A stretch of DNA of 62,533 nt from Candidatus Frackibacter sp. WG13 (GTDB lineage: Bacteria > Bacillota > Halanaerobiia > Halobacteroidales > Acetohalobiaceae). Made by a program: the position numbers and the translations under genes. The stretch spans positions 1 through 62,533 of the forward strand of contig NZ_FOTT01000017.1 in the NCBI RefSeq assembly GCF_900114655.1, read 5' to 3'. The notes under the pieces were generated by a model, which did no database searches, had not been told where the DNA came from, and saw only the letters and a list, made by a program, of their open reading frames with translations. Each line of letters opens with the position of its first letter. Positions within the stretch are counted from its first letter, which is position 1. Below, in pieces: positions 10,333 to 58,062 of the stretch.

Positions 10333-10375
10333 CATAAAACCTTTAAAGCTTTTGGTAAGCTTTAAAGGTTTTATG
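10333..10375 (-). terminator. Perfect inverted repeat overlapping the end of the small-gene operon
   Basis: 18-bp perfect stem (CATAAAACCTTTAAAGCT and its complement) with a 7-nt loop. It covers the stop codon and last codons of the 10343 gene. The following minus-strand sequence is T-rich but interrupted, so termination is likely, not certain. Confidence 0.6.
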
Positions 10376-10690
10376 TTTAATCTTCTCAGGATTTTGAATC
10401 CAATCTTTCCAGGTGGAGTCAGTTATTAAGTGGTTTAAAAACTTCCTCCATTTATCATTATTAATTTCTTTCCATGGAGCAAAAGGATTTATTGTTAATG
10501 ACCCTTGGTCACATGCTTGAAAGTGAGCCCAGAGAATAGCTAGAGCTAAGGAGTTAGGCTCAGAACTAGTGGTTTTAGATTTATTATCTGAACCGATATT
10601 GACTGAAATATCTTGTGGGTTGATTGGCTTGGAGGATTCAAGTACAATATTTTGCTTACAATGAAAGGTTGTAGTAACCTCATTAGACAT
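10343..10690 (-). CDS. Uncharacterised protein, short paralogue of its neighbour
   Basis: 115 residues, function not recognised. The first 45 residues (MSNEVTTTFHCKQNIVLES...) are nearly identical to those of the gene at 10702-11229, also at DNA level. The remainder is related (LALAILWAHF, then WIQNPEKI) but lacks that protein's C-terminal extension. There is no signal peptide or membrane helix, one Cys (residue 11), and a Trp-rich second half. A typical AGGAGG site precedes the ATG, and the gene follows its paralogue by 11 nt. The pair looks like a recent tandem duplication in a three-gene minus-strand operon. Confidence 0.8.
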   Translation of the reverse strand: MSNEVTTTFHCKQNIVLESSKPINPQDISVNIGSDNKSKTTSSEPNSLALAILWAHFQACDQGSLTINPFAPWKEINNDKWRKFLNHLITDSTWKDWIQNPEKIKHKTFKAYQKL

Positions 10691-10701
10691 GATTTTCCCT
10701 C

Positions 10702-11229
10702 CTATTTTTGATTATTAGAATTAGATAAGCAAGTAACAGACAAATTTTCAGTTTCTGCTTGAATATTGAGTTCAAGTTCAATGCTTAAAGGTTGTTTGAT
10801 AGAGAAACTTTCGGATTTTTCAATACTATTATCAGTTTCTACTTTATCATCAGATCTTATTTTATTATAAGCTTCAATACTTCGTTTGCGTAATTCTAAT
10901 GGATTTTGAATCCAGTTAGTCCAGCTGGCATCAGTTATAATATTTTCTAAAAATTGAAGCCAAAGTTCTTGGTTAGGAAATGATAGATCAGCATTTGTAT
11001 GTATTATTTCCCAAGGAACAGGTGAATCTACTTTTAGAACTCCCTGTTCATAAGCTTCAAAATGAGCCCAAAGAATAGCTAAAGCTAAGAAGTTAGGTTG
11101 TGAGTTAGTGGTTTTAGATTTATTATCTGAACCGATATTGACTGAAATATCCTGTGGATCAATTGGCTCGGAAGATTCAAGCACAATATTTTGCTTGCAG
11201 TGAAAGGTTGTAGTAACCTCATTAGACAT
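10702..11229 (-). CDS. Uncharacterised protein, long paralogue
   Basis: 175 residues, function not recognised. An upstream GTG/ATG extension to 11313 is in frame, but the ATG at 11229 has AGGAGG 7 nt before it and begins MSNEVTTTFHCKQ exactly like the downstream paralogue, so it is the start. The middle contains LALAILWAHFEAYEQG and WIQNPLELRKRS. The extra C-terminal 35 residues (LSIELELNIQAETENLSVTCL) alternate polar and hydrophobic residues as beta strands do, and resemble the end of the 47-residue protein encoded upstream (VEFDLVVTAKC). No membrane segments. Confidence 0.8.
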   Translation of the reverse strand: MSNEVTTTFHCKQNIVLESSEPIDPQDISVNIGSDNKSKTTNSQPNFLALAILWAHFEAYEQGVLKVDSPVPWEIIHTNADLSFPNQELWLQFLENIITDASWTNWIQNPLELRKRSIEAYNKIRSDDKVETDNSIEKSESFSIKQPLSIELELNIQAETENLSVTCLSNSNNQK

Positions 11230-11302
11230 AATCTTTCCTCCTGTTTTCATAAAATTCGAGTGTAGGGAAGAACCTACACTCGATAGAATTAATGTATTCT
11301 GT

Positions 11303-11446
11303 CTAGCAATCACATGGTTTGCATTTAATCTTTATATTATCACATTTGGCTGTGACTACTAAATCGAATTCGACACATAAATCTTGTTTAACGGGACACT
11401 TTTTAGTAGTTAATGGTGTGCACTTAGTGTTATTATCTGTTGACAA
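11303..11446 (-). CDS. Small cysteine-rich protein
   Basis: 47 residues from a TTG start at 11446, with AAGGGGTGA 5 nt upstream. It has six Cys, three of them in the last six residues (CKPCDC). The central VEFDLVVTAKCDNIKIKC alternates as a beta hairpin would. It is the first gene of the minus-strand trio with the two paralogous proteins. Metal binding or disulfide cross-linking (for instance in a spore surface layer) would fit the Cys pattern, but this is speculation. The coding call rests on the ribosome binding site, the open frame and the position. Confidence 0.6.
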   Translation of the reverse strand: MSTDNNTKCTPLTTKKCPVKQDLCVEFDLVVTAKCDNIKIKCKPCDC

Positions 11447-17887: not shown

Positions 17888-20746
17888 TCAAGATTCATCC
17901 TCAGTTGTTTCTTCTTTTATATCATCTTTCTTAGGAACTAATTCTTCACTTGTTTCTAAATTAACTTGTGGTTTTAAATTTTCAATTCCTTTTTTATTAG
18001 TTGATCTTTTTTCGCCAAAAGCCCTCTTTCTTTTATACCACTTTATTCCTTCAAAAGATAGCAAAAAGATTCCACCAGCTATTAGTATCCTCAGCCAATC
18101 CACTGCCGGCAGTGGAGCAAAATCCATATAAGAGTTAAGGCCTGGGACATAAACAACGGATAATACTAACCCAATGGAAATAACAATTGAATAGAGCATC
18201 TTCTTATTATTAAAAAAGTTTTTATTAAAAAGGCTGGTAAACTTATAACGTCGTGAAAGTATATTCAATAACTGACAAATAACAATAGTTAAATAGGTTA
18301 TAGTGGTAGCCCGAGGATATAAGGCATGATTATTAGTGAATACTCCTCCAATATTACTGACAAAAAGAGCATAATTTATAAAAGCTAATCCTCCCATCAT
18401 AATACCTAAAAAACTTACTTCAATAGCACTACTTTGATTAATAATATGCTCATCTCGGTCTCGGGGAGGAGTAGTCATTAATTCCTCAGAACCAGGATCA
18501 AAGGTTAATGCTGTTAAGGGGAGAATCTCTGCTAATAAGTCAATAGCAAGTATTTGAATAGCTAGTATCGGTATTGGCCAATTTAATAAAACTGCTCCAA
18601 TTAAGCCTAATAGTACAATTAATAGTTCAGCGGCATTACTGGTTAAAGTTCCAAGTACTGTCTTTTTAAGATTATTATAGATGGTTCGACCTTCTTTAAT
18701 AGCATGAACTAGAGTCGGATAACTATCATCTAGCAAAATCATTTCTGCTGTTTCTTTCGATACATCAGTTCCCATCTGTCCCATAGCAACACCGATATGA
18801 GCACTCTTTAGTGCTGGCGCATCATTGACACCATCTCCTGTTACTGCTACAATCTTATCTTCTTCCTTTAGATTTTGTACAATTCTTAATTTATTTTCTG
18901 GAGAAACACGAGAAAAGACTAAAGATCTATTCTCTTTCATTTTTTCTTTTAATTTTTCATCAGACAATTCTTCTAATTTTTGATTGGTGATTACTGGTGC
19001 TTCTTTATCACCGCCTAGATTAATTTCTTCTGCTATGGCTTTAGCTGTTATAGCATGGTCACCGGTCATGATATAGGTGTCGATATGGGCTTGATGAGCA
19101 TCGGCAATAGCTTCTTTTACTCCTTCCTTAGGCGGATCAATCATAGCTACTAATCCTAAGAAGACAACATCTCGTTCGATCTTATCTATCTCATAATCAG
19201 TCTCATCAGGTCCAAGCTCACGATGGGCAACGGCTAAAACTCGCAGAGCTTGATTTGAATACTTTTCATTTATATCATTTAATTTCTTTTTATCCTGCTC
19301 AGTGATCTCTACTTTTTCACCGTTCTTATAGATATATTTTGCTATTGAAAGTACACTATTTAAAGCTCCCTTCATAGTTAGAACTTTACTATCTTCAAAC
19401 TCTCTTATAGAACTCATTCTCTTACGTTCCGAATCAAAGCTAAATTCATGAATTTCAGGGTTTTCTTCGTCCTCTTTAGGAGATCGGATGCCTAGTTTAG
19501 TAGATAAAGTTATTAAAGCTGCTTCAGTAGGGTCTCCGATAGGGTACCAGCCGGCATGATCATCATCGGGAGGATGAACTTCGGCATTGGAAGACATAGT
19601 TGCAGCATCAAACATGCTTTCTAATTCTTCTTTTTCTTCTTCATCAACCGGAGTGTCATCTTGATGTAGTATGTCGCCTTCTGGTTCATAGCCAAGTCCA
19701 GTAATTTTATATTCTTGATCATTGAACCAGACAGTCTTAACGGTCATTTCATTTTTAGTCAGAGTACCGGTCTTATCTGTAGATATTACATTTGTAGACC
19801 CAAGTGTTTCAACAGAAGAAAGTTTCTTAACTATGGCATTTTTTTCAGACATCCTAGCTACTCCTTGAGAGAGAGAAACGGTAACCTGCATCGGTAATGC
19901 TTGGGGAACAATAGCAACGGTTATACCTAGACCATAAATCAGGGCATAATACAGATTAAGCCCTCGATAAATACTGACTCCAAATAGTAAGATACCTATT
20001 ATAACAGCAAGGATTGCTAATTGATTAGCAACTACTCTTAACTCTTCCTGTAAAGGTGATTCAGATTTCTCTTCTTCCTGTGTCAAAGAAGCAATCTTAC
20101 CCATTTCAGTCTCTGTACCTGTAGATACGACTACACCTTTAGCTGATCCAGATGCAACATTAGTGCCCATATAAGCCATACTACTACGATCGCCAAGAGG
20201 ACTTTCTTCATTAATTGGATTACTTTGCTTTTCTTGCGGCATTGATTCTCCTGTTAATGCTACTTCATTAGTCCTAAGATTATTAGATTCTATTATTCTT
20301 ATATCCGCAGGGACTTTATCTCCTTCCTCTAGACTAATTACGTCACCAGGGACTAGGTTTTTTTGCTCTATTTCTTTGAGCCCTCCATCTCTATAAACTT
20401 TAGCAGGAGATTGGATTAACTTTTTTAGAGAAGACATTATCTTTTCAGCTTTAAACTCTTGAAAGAATCCAATTACTACATTAATAACAACTATTGCTAA
20501 CATTACAATAGCATCACGATAATTCTGGATTAGCAAAGACATTCCAGCAGCTACTACTAACATTATAGTTAATACATCTTTAAACTGTAATAAGAACAAG
20601 AGCCATTTTGGTGTACCTTGAGAGACTTCTAGCTTATTCTCACCGTATTTTTTTAATCTCTTTTTAGCCTCCTTTTCAGAAATACCTTTCTGACTAGTAC
20701 TAAGTTCTTTAAATACATCTTTAATCTGTTGTTGATAAAAATTAAT
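17888..20746 (-). CDS. P-type cation ATPase with an atypical ion-site motif and probable ATT start
   Basis: About 952 residues. The first ATG/GTG/TTG in frame is a TTG at 20599, but the frame is open and conserved 49 codons further up, encoding the cation ATPase N-domain (KGISEKEAKKRLKKYGENKL). The only plausible start is ATT at 20746, 9 nt after AGGAGG. Motifs: TGESMP, M4 motif PQALP at residues 281-285 where Ca2+ pumps have PEGLP, DKTGTLT with Asp324, [12 protein letters not shown]. The C-terminus adds about 50 charged residues. The Glu-to-Gln change makes the ion uncertain. Single gene, between a terminator and a divergent YIEGIA gene. Confidence 0.8.
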   Translation of the reverse strand: MNFYQQQIKDVFKELSTSQKGISEKEAKKRLKKYGENKLEVSQGTPKWLLFLLQFKDVLTIMLVVAAGMSLLIQNYRDAIVMLAIVVINVVIGFFQEFKAEKIMSSLKKLIQSPAKVYRDGGLKEIEQKNLVPGDVISLEEGDKVPADIRIIESNNLRTNEVALTGESMPQEKQSNPINEESPLGDRSSMAYMGTNVASGSAKGVVVSTGTETEMGKIASLTQEEEKSESPLQEELRVVANQLAILAVIIGILLFGVSIYRGLNLYYALIYGLGITVAIVPQALPMQVTVSLSQGVARMSEKNAIVKKLSSVETLGSTNVISTDKTGTLTKNEMTVKTVWFNDQEYKITGLGYEPEGDILHQDDTPVDEEEKEELESMFDAATMSSNAEVHPPDDDHAGWYPIGDPTEAALITLSTKLGIRSPKEDEENPEIHEFSFDSERKRMSSIREFEDSKVLTMKGALNSVLSIAKYIYKNGEKVEITEQDKKKLNDINEKYSNQALRVLAVAHRELGPDETDYEIDKIERDVVFLGLVAMIDPPKEGVKEAIADAHQAHIDTYIMTGDHAITAKAIAEEINLGGDKEAPVITNQKLEELSDEKLKEKMKENRSLVFSRVSPENKLRIVQNLKEEDKIVAVTGDGVNDAPALKSAHIGVAMGQMGTDVSKETAEMILLDDSYPTLVHAIKEGRTIYNNLKKTVLGTLTSNAAELLIVLLGLIGAVLLNWPIPILAIQILAIDLLAEILPLTALTFDPGSEELMTTPPRDRDEHIINQSSAIEVSFLGIMMGGLAFINYALFVSNIGGVFTNNHALYPRATTITYLTIVICQLLNILSRRYKFTSLFNKNFFNNKKMLYSIVISIGLVLSVVYVPGLNSYMDFAPLPAVDWLRILIAGGIFLLSFEGIKWYKRKRAFGEKRSTNKKGIENLKPQVNLETSEELVPKKDDIKEETTEDES

Positions 20747-20956
20747 TTTCTCACACCTCCTATTTGCAATGACTAATTTTATTTTGTCATGTTCTATTAT
20801 TATTTATACTTTTTACTTAAGTTAATTTTATATAATTAAATGGATAGTCAGATGATTTTAATGTAAAAAGTTAATAAATTAATTACTGTAGATGAATATG
20901 TAAATTGATGTTATCAAATCATAATAAGAAAAGTAACTTTAAGGAGCATTAATAAT

Positions 20957-56553: not shown

Positions 56554-56624
56554 TTTTTTAGATTAATATCTTTGAATTAAGTCTTTGGAAGTGATATAAT
56601 TTACTGCAAAAGGAGTGATTAGTA

Positions 56625-57398
56625 TTGGAAAAACCAGTTCGGTTTGGTGAGAGTGGCGAGGAGATGTTTGGTGTTTTGCATATTCCAGAATGTAAAACTA
56701 GCTATCCCAAACCAGCAGTAATCTTTTGTCATGGTTTCAAAGGAGATAAGGTCGGACCACATAGACTTTTTGTAAAAATGGCGAGAAGATTAGCTAAGAA
56801 TGGGATTTTAGTTTTTAGGTTTGATTACCGTGGTTGTGGAGAAAGTTTAGGACGATTTGTAGATACTACAATCTCTAGTCAAATAGATGATACTTTAACT
56901 GCTATTAATTTTGTAAGCCAATTAAAGAGAGTAAACTCTTCACAGTTAGGTTTATTAGGTTTAAGTTTGGGAGGGGCAGTTGCTTCTTGTGCTGCAGCTA
57001 GGTCAAAACAAATTAAAGCTTTAGTCTTATGGTCAGCGGTAGCAGATATTCAAAAAGTATTTTTAAGTCAACGACCAGAAGATGGTTCTTTAGAACAGAT
57101 TAATGAAAAAGGATATATAGACTTAGAAGGATTTAGGTTAGGAAAAGAATTTGTTATGGAAGTTAACCAGATAAATCCATTGACAGAGATTAAAGAATAC
57201 AAAGATTTAGTTTTTTTAGCACATGGAAGTGAAGATGAAGTTGTACCTATAGAAAATATTGAAAGTTATTATGATACTGTAATAACTAAAAAATGTCAAA
57301 AGCATATAGTTGTAGGGGCAGACCATACATATAATAGTTATGAATGGGAAAAGGAAGTTATGGAAAAGACACAGCAATGGTTAATTGAAAACTTATAG
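56625..57398 (+). CDS. Alpha/beta hydrolase (serine aminopeptidase S33 type)
   Basis: 257 residues. HGFKGDKVGPHR forms the oxyanion region, FDYRGCGES a conserved strand, nucleophile Ser in LGLSLGGAVA (near residue 119), acid Asp in AHGSEDEVVP, and catalytic His in GADHTYN. Probably a cytosolic esterase or acylglycerol lipase; substrate unknown. Start TTG after AAAGGAGTGA. The endonuclease III gene follows by 31 nt, probably in the same transcript. Confidence 0.85.
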   Translation: MEKPVRFGESGEEMFGVLHIPECKTSYPKPAVIFCHGFKGDKVGPHRLFVKMARRLAKNGILVFRFDYRGCGESLGRFVDTTISSQIDDTLTAINFVSQLKRVNSSQLGLLGLSLGGAVASCAAARSKQIKALVLWSAVADIQKVFLSQRPEDGSLEQINEKGYIDLEGFRLGKEFVMEVNQINPLTEIKEYKDLVFLAHGSEDEVVPIENIESYYDTVITKKCQKHIVVGADHTYNSYEWEKEVMEKTQQWLIENL

Positions 57399-57429
57399 CG
57401 AATTATTGAAAATTGTGAGGTGAGTAATA

Positions 57430-58062
57430 ATTAAATCTAAAGCAGAGATTAAGGATATATTAGATATATTAGCAGATAAGTATCCGAATCCAGAAACTGA
57501 ATTAAATTATGAGACACCTTTTCAACTCTTAATTGCTACTATTTTATCGGCTCAATCTACTGATAAACAGGTAAATAAGGTAACAATTAAGTTATTTGAA
57601 AGATATAGAGAGCCAAAAGACTTTATCGATATGACTATTGAAGAATTAGCAAAGAAGATTCAAGGGGTTGGATTATATCGTAATAAAGCTAAATATATAA
57701 TTGATACGTGTCATAAATTAGTAGAAGAATATGATTCTCAAGTCCCAACAACTCGCAAAGAATTAATGAGGTTATCTGGAGTAGGAAGAAAGACTGCTAA
57801 TGTAGTTCTAAGCTGTGCTTTTGGTCATAATGCGATAGCTGTAGACACTCACGTCTTTAGAGTAGCGAATCGATTAGGAATAGCTAGTAGTAAGACGGTA
57901 GAAAAGACAGAAAAAGATTTAATGGAGAAGGTTCCAAAGAATTTATGGTCTGCTGCTCATCATTGGTTTATCTTTCATGGGCGAGAAGTCTGTAAAGCTA
58001 GAAAGCCTCGTTGTGAAGAGTGTTCATTACAAAAGCTATGTGACTATTACTTACAAACTTAA
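57430..58062 (+). CDS. nth: Endonuclease III, probable ATT start
   Basis: 210 residues if initiated at ATT 57430, which lies 6 nt after GAGGTGA. The frame is open only back to a TGA at 57421, and the first ATG, at 57625 or later, would delete the conserved LIATILSAQSTDKQVNKV segment. Helix-hairpin-helix LSGVGRKTANVV with catalytic Lys121, Asp139 in VDTHVFRV, and 4Fe-4S ligands Cys188, 195, 198, 204 (C-x6-C-x2-C-x5-C). It excises oxidised pyrimidines and nicks abasic sites. Length and residue numbers match E. coli Nth almost exactly, supporting this start. Confidence 0.9.
   Translation: MKSKAEIKDILDILADKYPNPETELNYETPFQLLIATILSAQSTDKQVNKVTIKLFERYREPKDFIDMTIEELAKKIQGVGLYRNKAKYIIDTCHKLVEEYDSQVPTTRKELMRLSGVGRKTANVVLSCAFGHNAIAVDTHVFRVANRLGIASSKTVEKTEKDLMEKVPKNLWSAAHHWFIFHGREVCKARKPRCEECSLQKLCDYYLQT

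Follow-up and report, generated by a model that had tools for sequence, protein, structure and literature searches.

We consider it highly likely that translation of the endonuclease III gene (nth) in the salt-loving anaerobe Candidatus Frackibacter sp. WG13 starts with initiator tRNA at the AUU codon at position 57430 of the window (the whole 62,533-nt stretch of DNA analyzed here), guided by the strong Shine-Dalgarno (SD) sequence GAGGTGA. By sequence comparison, nth appears to belong to a recurrent set of genes in this family that start at AUU, AUA, or AUC (AUH): infC, ccpN, two sigma factor genes, spoIID, and the genes for a P-type ATPase and a CBS protein.

The nth gene and its product

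The nth frame covers 57424-58062 on the plus strand, directly behind an in-frame TGA (57421-57423) that shuts the frame upstream and makes a start further 5' impossible. The earliest in-frame ATG, GTG, or TTG is ATG 57631, which lies within the conserved fold; as an internal start it would cut off the first third of Nth, and it was rejected. The sequence-only reading had claimed that no such codon precedes the conserved residues and that an ATT 6 nt past GAGGTGA (57417-57423) gives a 210-residue product, and both claims hold when the sequence is read again. Measured as SD-to-start spacing, which has its mode at 7-9 in this genome, ATT 57430 lies at 9 and the preceding ATA 57427 at 6. The gene has the features of an AUH-initiated bacterial gene: past the upstream stop, no ATG, GTG, or TTG is usable ahead of the conserved part, and a strong SD stands at standard spacing. 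Local RNA folding of the leader does not exceed that of shuffled sequences (z 0.01), with partial pairing predicted between the SD and the AUU. The ORF upstream of nth is alpha/beta-hydrolase-like, a name that we assume from its sequence. Table 1 lists the features.

Table 1. Features of the nth and ATPase loci in the window, and positions of other candidate AUH starts (contig handle and position)
Feature	Position	Strand	Remarks
nth, endonuclease III, 210 aa read from ATT	57430..58062	+	TIGR01083 283.1 bits; Lys121/Asp139; C-x6-C-x2-C-x5-C near end
Proposed AUU start codon of nth	57430..57432	+	ATG/GTG there in 4/4 family orthologues; spacing 9 from SD
SD GAGGTGA, 7-nt anti-SD match	57417..57423	+	GAGGTG also 5' of G002 GTG start
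In-frame TGA closing the nth frame	57421..57423	+	sequence
ORF upstream of nth, TAG stop 57396-57398	56619..57398	+	stop 31 nt before ATT
P-type (Ca-type) ATPase, 952 aa from ATT	17888..20746	-	ATT in G002 and G004, ATC in G003 at site
Proposed AUU start codon of ATPase	20744..20746	-	spacing 9 from AGGAGGTG
SD AGGAGGTG of ATPase	20754..20761	-	sequence
WhiG-like sigma, ATA, without usable standard start	L103 4516	-	own genome
RpoD-type sigma, ATT, without usable standard start	L100 3063	-	own genome
CcpN, ATT, without usable standard start	L035 5037	+	own genome
SpoIID, ATA, without usable standard start	L109 8264	+	own genome
CBS protein, ATC, without usable standard start	L108 9319	+	own genome
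TrkH, GTG within SD, ATT/ATC three codons on	L040 7407	-	own genome
GTG within SD, ATT/ATC three codons on at apparent conserved protein start	L223 6802	-	
GTG within SD, ATT/ATC three codons on at apparent conserved protein start	L195 9842	+	
GTG within SD, ATT/ATC three codons on at apparent conserved protein start	L183 19710	-	
GTG within SD, ATT/ATC three codons on at apparent conserved protein start	L171 5403	+	

The product scores 283.1 bits against TIGR01083 (nth; cut-off 211.7), its residues 5-195 spanning positions 2-192 of the 192 in the profile, so no N-terminal part of Nth is missing. In an alignment with the E. coli structure 2abk, Lys121 and Asp139 fall on Lys120 and Asp138, as the sequence-only reading had it; we take these two to be the catalytic residues of endonuclease III in E. 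coli numbering. The four [4Fe-4S] cysteines of endonuclease III follow the pattern C-x6-C-x2-C-x5-C, and the same pattern is present in our protein (VCKARKPRCEECSLQKLC, aligned with 2abk). There are no stops or frameshifts, and the catalytic residues and cluster cysteines are kept. The gene is also the one match to PF00730 (HhH-GPD) in the whole 2.77-Mb genome. Compared with the orthologue in G002, dN is 0.184 and dS 1.32 (dN/dS about 0.14); dN to the outgroup G010 is 0.265, and that of the relatives to G010 is 0.253-0.315. The gene is an intact, complete, single-copy endonuclease III under purifying selection, with no acceleration of its rate.

The nth start in related genomes

Nth protein was found in 57 of the 61 genomes searched and loci were obtained for 30 of the 57; with one distant locus added by a contig scan, 31 start regions were read, our own included. 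The aligned start in all four other family genomes is exactly at our ATT, and the ATT itself is not conserved in them: the codon is ATG in G001, G003, and G004, and GTG in G002, where a GAGGTG SD identical to ours precedes it. A standard start is present at all 30 other loci, and ours is the only one without; ATT is therefore the derived state of this genome, a change known from one genome. ATT 57430 is very probably a derived and functional nth start.

The companion ATPase gene

The sequence-only reading had named the P-type ATPase as a second AUU case in the window, and this is borne out by ATT 20746 on the minus strand behind the SD AGGAGGTG (20754-20761), at the same spacing of 9 as in nth. 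Orthologues with 79-88% N-terminal identity have ATT (G002), ATC (G003), and ATT (G004) at this place and no standard start near; G010 has GTG and G030 ATG. A near-cognate start under selection would be expected to look like this, with ATT replaced by ATC and the remainder unchanged, and the pattern cannot stem from one sequencing error.

Further AUH starts in the genome and family

A search for more start-less AUH genes, proposed in the sequence-only reading as a check, was carried out on 815,240 bases (29%) of the genome, a non-random sample made up of the window, contig starts, and stretches taken from four long contigs. Genes were called (660 in total) and SDs scored with home-made programs. 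At least 8 of the 660 start with AUH and are backed by orthologues: nth, the ATPase, infC, a CcpN homologue, an RpoD-type sigma factor, a FliA/WhiG-family (WhiG-like) sigma factor, SpoIID, and a CBS protein. At this rate, two such genes among the roughly 60 of the window are not unusual (P 0.16). Five ambiguous genes, with GTG or ATG close by or with orthologues missing, were left out of the count: TrkH (L040 7398), MgtC (L102 7203), a CcsA-like gene (L106 6211), an unknown gene (L099 16274), and a metallo-hydrolase-like ORF (L105 255).

Several of these starts recur in other genomes. The infC codon is ATT in 13 of 13 genomes, and the CcpN homologue (NF053704, 286.8 bits, cut-off 260) has ATT in all eight found. 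The RpoD-type sigma factor has ATT here and in G002 and G003; in G004 an ATG stands just ahead of the ATT. ATA is found in 5/5 family genomes for the WhiG-like sigma factor (TIGR02479 above cut-off); the four sister-family cases found have ATG or GTG. SpoIID (TIGR02870 above cut-off) likewise has ATA in 5/5 family genomes, a count in which the G001 frame has two consecutive ATA and the G004 placement is based on likeness to G003; G005, G007, and G008 have ATG or TTG. The CBS protein has ATC here, ATT in G002, and GTG in G003. Together with the ATPase orthologues, these genes bear out the proposal of the sequence-only reading that AUU initiation is tolerated in this lineage.

Statistical tests of the AUH excess

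The test took SD matches of at least 6 nt that are followed by no in-frame standard start, and compared the codons found in frame at spacings of 7-9 with the out-of-frame triplets there. In our genome 19/74 in-frame codons are AUH vs 10/158 out of frame (p 7e-5), although some of the 19 are clearly no starts because a good ATG is near. The excess is also seen in G004 (7/29 vs 4/70, p 0.013) and G005 (9/35 vs 7/72, p 0.032), and is not significant in G019 (6/33 vs 6/68, p 0.15) or G030 (4/32 vs 8/74, p 0.52). Pooled, the five genomes give 45/203 vs 35/442 (p 8e-7); the individual counts are small and all five genomes come from one class. A stricter scan, with no standard codon allowed between the upstream stop and 12 codons beyond the candidate, gave AUH in 11/38 cases in our genome, 4/27 in G004, 4/20 in G005, 3/15 in G019, and 4/31 in G030, and it also passed sites that are clearly no starts. 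For five G004 and G005 candidates, a Pfam scan supplied names only, not start placement. A frame-blind count of GGAGGTGN6ATT in our genome is uninformative (11, vs 12 for the reversed control and 7 for TTA).

Starts probably masked by a GTG within the Shine-Dalgarno sequence

At a spacing of 8, the GTG of GGAGGTG itself falls in frame, three codons 5' of the start. Across the five sampled genomes, there are 14 cases in which the GTG of a GAGGTG lies in frame and the four codons after it include no standard start. Codon +3 is AUH in 11 of the 14, compared with a codon frequency of 0.08-0.09 (p 9e-10). Gene callers restricted to ATG, GTG, and TTG would therefore probably take the SD-internal GTG and hide the AUH start. 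TrkH of our genome fits the pattern, as the ATG of G001 lies exactly at our ATT. Further examples are two ORFs that, from their sequences, are presumably a low-molecular-weight phosphatase in G019 and a nucleoside diphosphate kinase in G005.

Alternative explanations and mechanism

Since the nth orthologues show ATG or GTG at the site, the real codon could be one of these and the draft alone could read ATT; in a 48-contig genome known from its assembly alone, a single wrong base would be enough. Each start-less gene would then need its own independent error, and the codons of the ATPase, infC, ccpN, WhiG-like sigma factor, and spoIID are AUH again in several separate genomes, so we regard such an error as unlikely. 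The sequence-only reading would have given way if no further such genes existed, or if orthologues had ATG here and the assembly were in error. Further genes do exist and orthologues do carry ATG at the site, but an assembly error is unsupported. It is somewhat less likely still that ATA 57427 is the start and ATT the second codon: this ATA has the same SD and frame and AUA starts occur in the family, but orthologue starts line up with ATT, and fewer standard starts in this genome have a spacing of 6 than of 9 (21 vs 66 genes).

A start codon unlike that of every orthologue examined might also mean that nth lost its start and is no longer translated. The intact frame with its catalytic residues and cysteines, the status as the genome's only HhH-GPD gene, and a dN/dS that speaks of a normal evolutionary rate make a dead gene very unlikely, though a loss that happened only very recently would not show; a pseudogene was rejected as unsupported. 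Least credible is a frameshift from the nearby mini-ORF at GTG 57420 (GTG AGT AAT AAT TAA), where a +1 shift at the stop would reach the nth frame. This GTG sits within the SD and has none of its own, the orthologues need no shift, and we consider the idea next to negligible and rejected it.

With initiation at AUU 57430, an ancestral ATG or GTG would have been replaced by ATT in this lineage. The strong SD GAGGTGA would keep the weak AUU codon in the P site, where initiator tRNA most likely reads it through the first two bases, and the protein would begin fMet-Lys-Ser-Lys. Nth would presumably be made at a reduced level, with a yield dependent on how strictly IF3 discriminates. IF3, whose inspection had been suggested in the sequence-only reading, is ordinary in sequence (E 3e-58 to a solved IF3). 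Three places carry a GGG...CCC initiator-type anticodon stem (three G-C pairs); the two tRNA-Met genes in the sample are elongator-like by our reading of their stems. An ordinary IF3 and the presence of initiator-type stems give no sign that the initiation machinery is relaxed, and this was rejected as the cause; the tolerance of AUU may simply rest on strong SD sequences.

Comparison with known systems

The sequence-only reading described AUU starts as known elsewhere mainly from infC and pcnB. Both are indeed known cases, but AUU and AUA starts are already documented past these two, in Borrelia pncA and in ccpN (PMC13398362, PMC13009471). The infC start is ATT in E. coli and ATC in Streptomyces (PMC5472188), and AUA in S. 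aureus (PMC13009471). Like infC in E. coli and elsewhere among bacteria, nth has a near-cognate AUH codon past a strong SD, presumably used by initiator tRNA, and our infC also has ATT. In infC the AUH codon serves the autoregulation of IF3; nth lacks a loop of this kind, and ATG or GTG takes its place in the relatives. The AUU start of E. coli pcnB, which reportedly limits expression (Binns and Masters 2002), is likewise on a gene other than infC, in a different gene and phylum from ours.

In the S. aureus report, ccpN and cvfC1 have conserved AUA and AUU starts with extended SDs, and reporter yields from non-canonical starts are about 10% of those from AUG, rising to as much as 30% in rich medium for ccpN (PMC13009471). 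Our CcpN homologue shares the AUH start, as ATT. Four non-canonical initiation sites are given for S. aureus (PMC13009471), whereas our count is at least 8 among 660 called genes, nth and the P-type ATPase included. Borrelia burgdorferi pncA (BBE22) resembles our case in being a metabolic enzyme whose annotation was wrong because AUU was not accepted as a start, but pncA is backed by biochemistry and a crystal structure (PMC13398362) and nth by sequence alone. Streptomyces sigR, a sigma factor gene whose GTC start follows AGGAGGTG and is repressed by IF3 (PMC5472188), parallels our two sigma factors with non-canonical starts (AUU and AUA); it differs in its codon and in that IF3 control is shown for sigR and only supposed here. 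In a reconstruction from annotated genomes, 1 of 61,358 ancestral AUG starts had switched to AUU (PMC5622118); set against the minimum of 8 AUH genes among our 660, this suggests either that our lineage is unusually rich in them or that they are generally under-counted. Judged by listing, we recognized nothing on AUU starts in nth or non-canonical starts in Halanaerobiales in the open-licence literature. AUU starts as such are known and nth adds a new gene; the interesting part is their density and family-level conservation.

We lean slightly toward a broader view, in which AUU, AUA, and AUC form a regular minor start class (at least about 1% of genes) in Halanaerobiia, clearest in this family. 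Several would be conserved at family-level divergence in regulators (WhiG-like sigma, RpoD-type sigma, CcpN, SpoIID), a conservation by which they may constitute an IF3-sensitive, translationally limited gene set, and many would be hidden by the in-frame GTG of GGAGGTG at spacing 8. With nth almost certainly starting at AUU, as one of several AUH genes in the family, the ordinary annotation rule hides real starts here; callers that accept ATG, GTG, and TTG alone would truncate such genes, drop them, or start them at the SD-internal GTG. The conserved AUA or AUU codons of SpoIID, CcpN, and two sigma factors open a direct way to test whether development and metabolism are under IF3-linked control.

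Other observations

A start-less 730-codon frame in our genome (L112 9328, plus strand) has ATG ATG with an SD just 5' in another frame, and a frameshift (real or in the assembly) or a programmed shift is possible there. The frame at L043 3923 (plus strand, own genome) begins GTCTRCGATIVKEIERAGIPVV behind an in-frame TGA, which we take to be like a selenocysteine site of the glycine-reductase type. Late-opening frames at L046 10459 and L113 1941 (both minus strand, own genome), presumably peroxiredoxin- and Hsp33-like pieces, are possibly broken genes or draft frame errors. In the window, two neighboring ORFs at 10343-11331 (minus strand) share near-identical stretches (VTTTFHCKQNIVLESS...ISVNIGSDNKSKTT) and seem to be tandem copies of an unknown protein.
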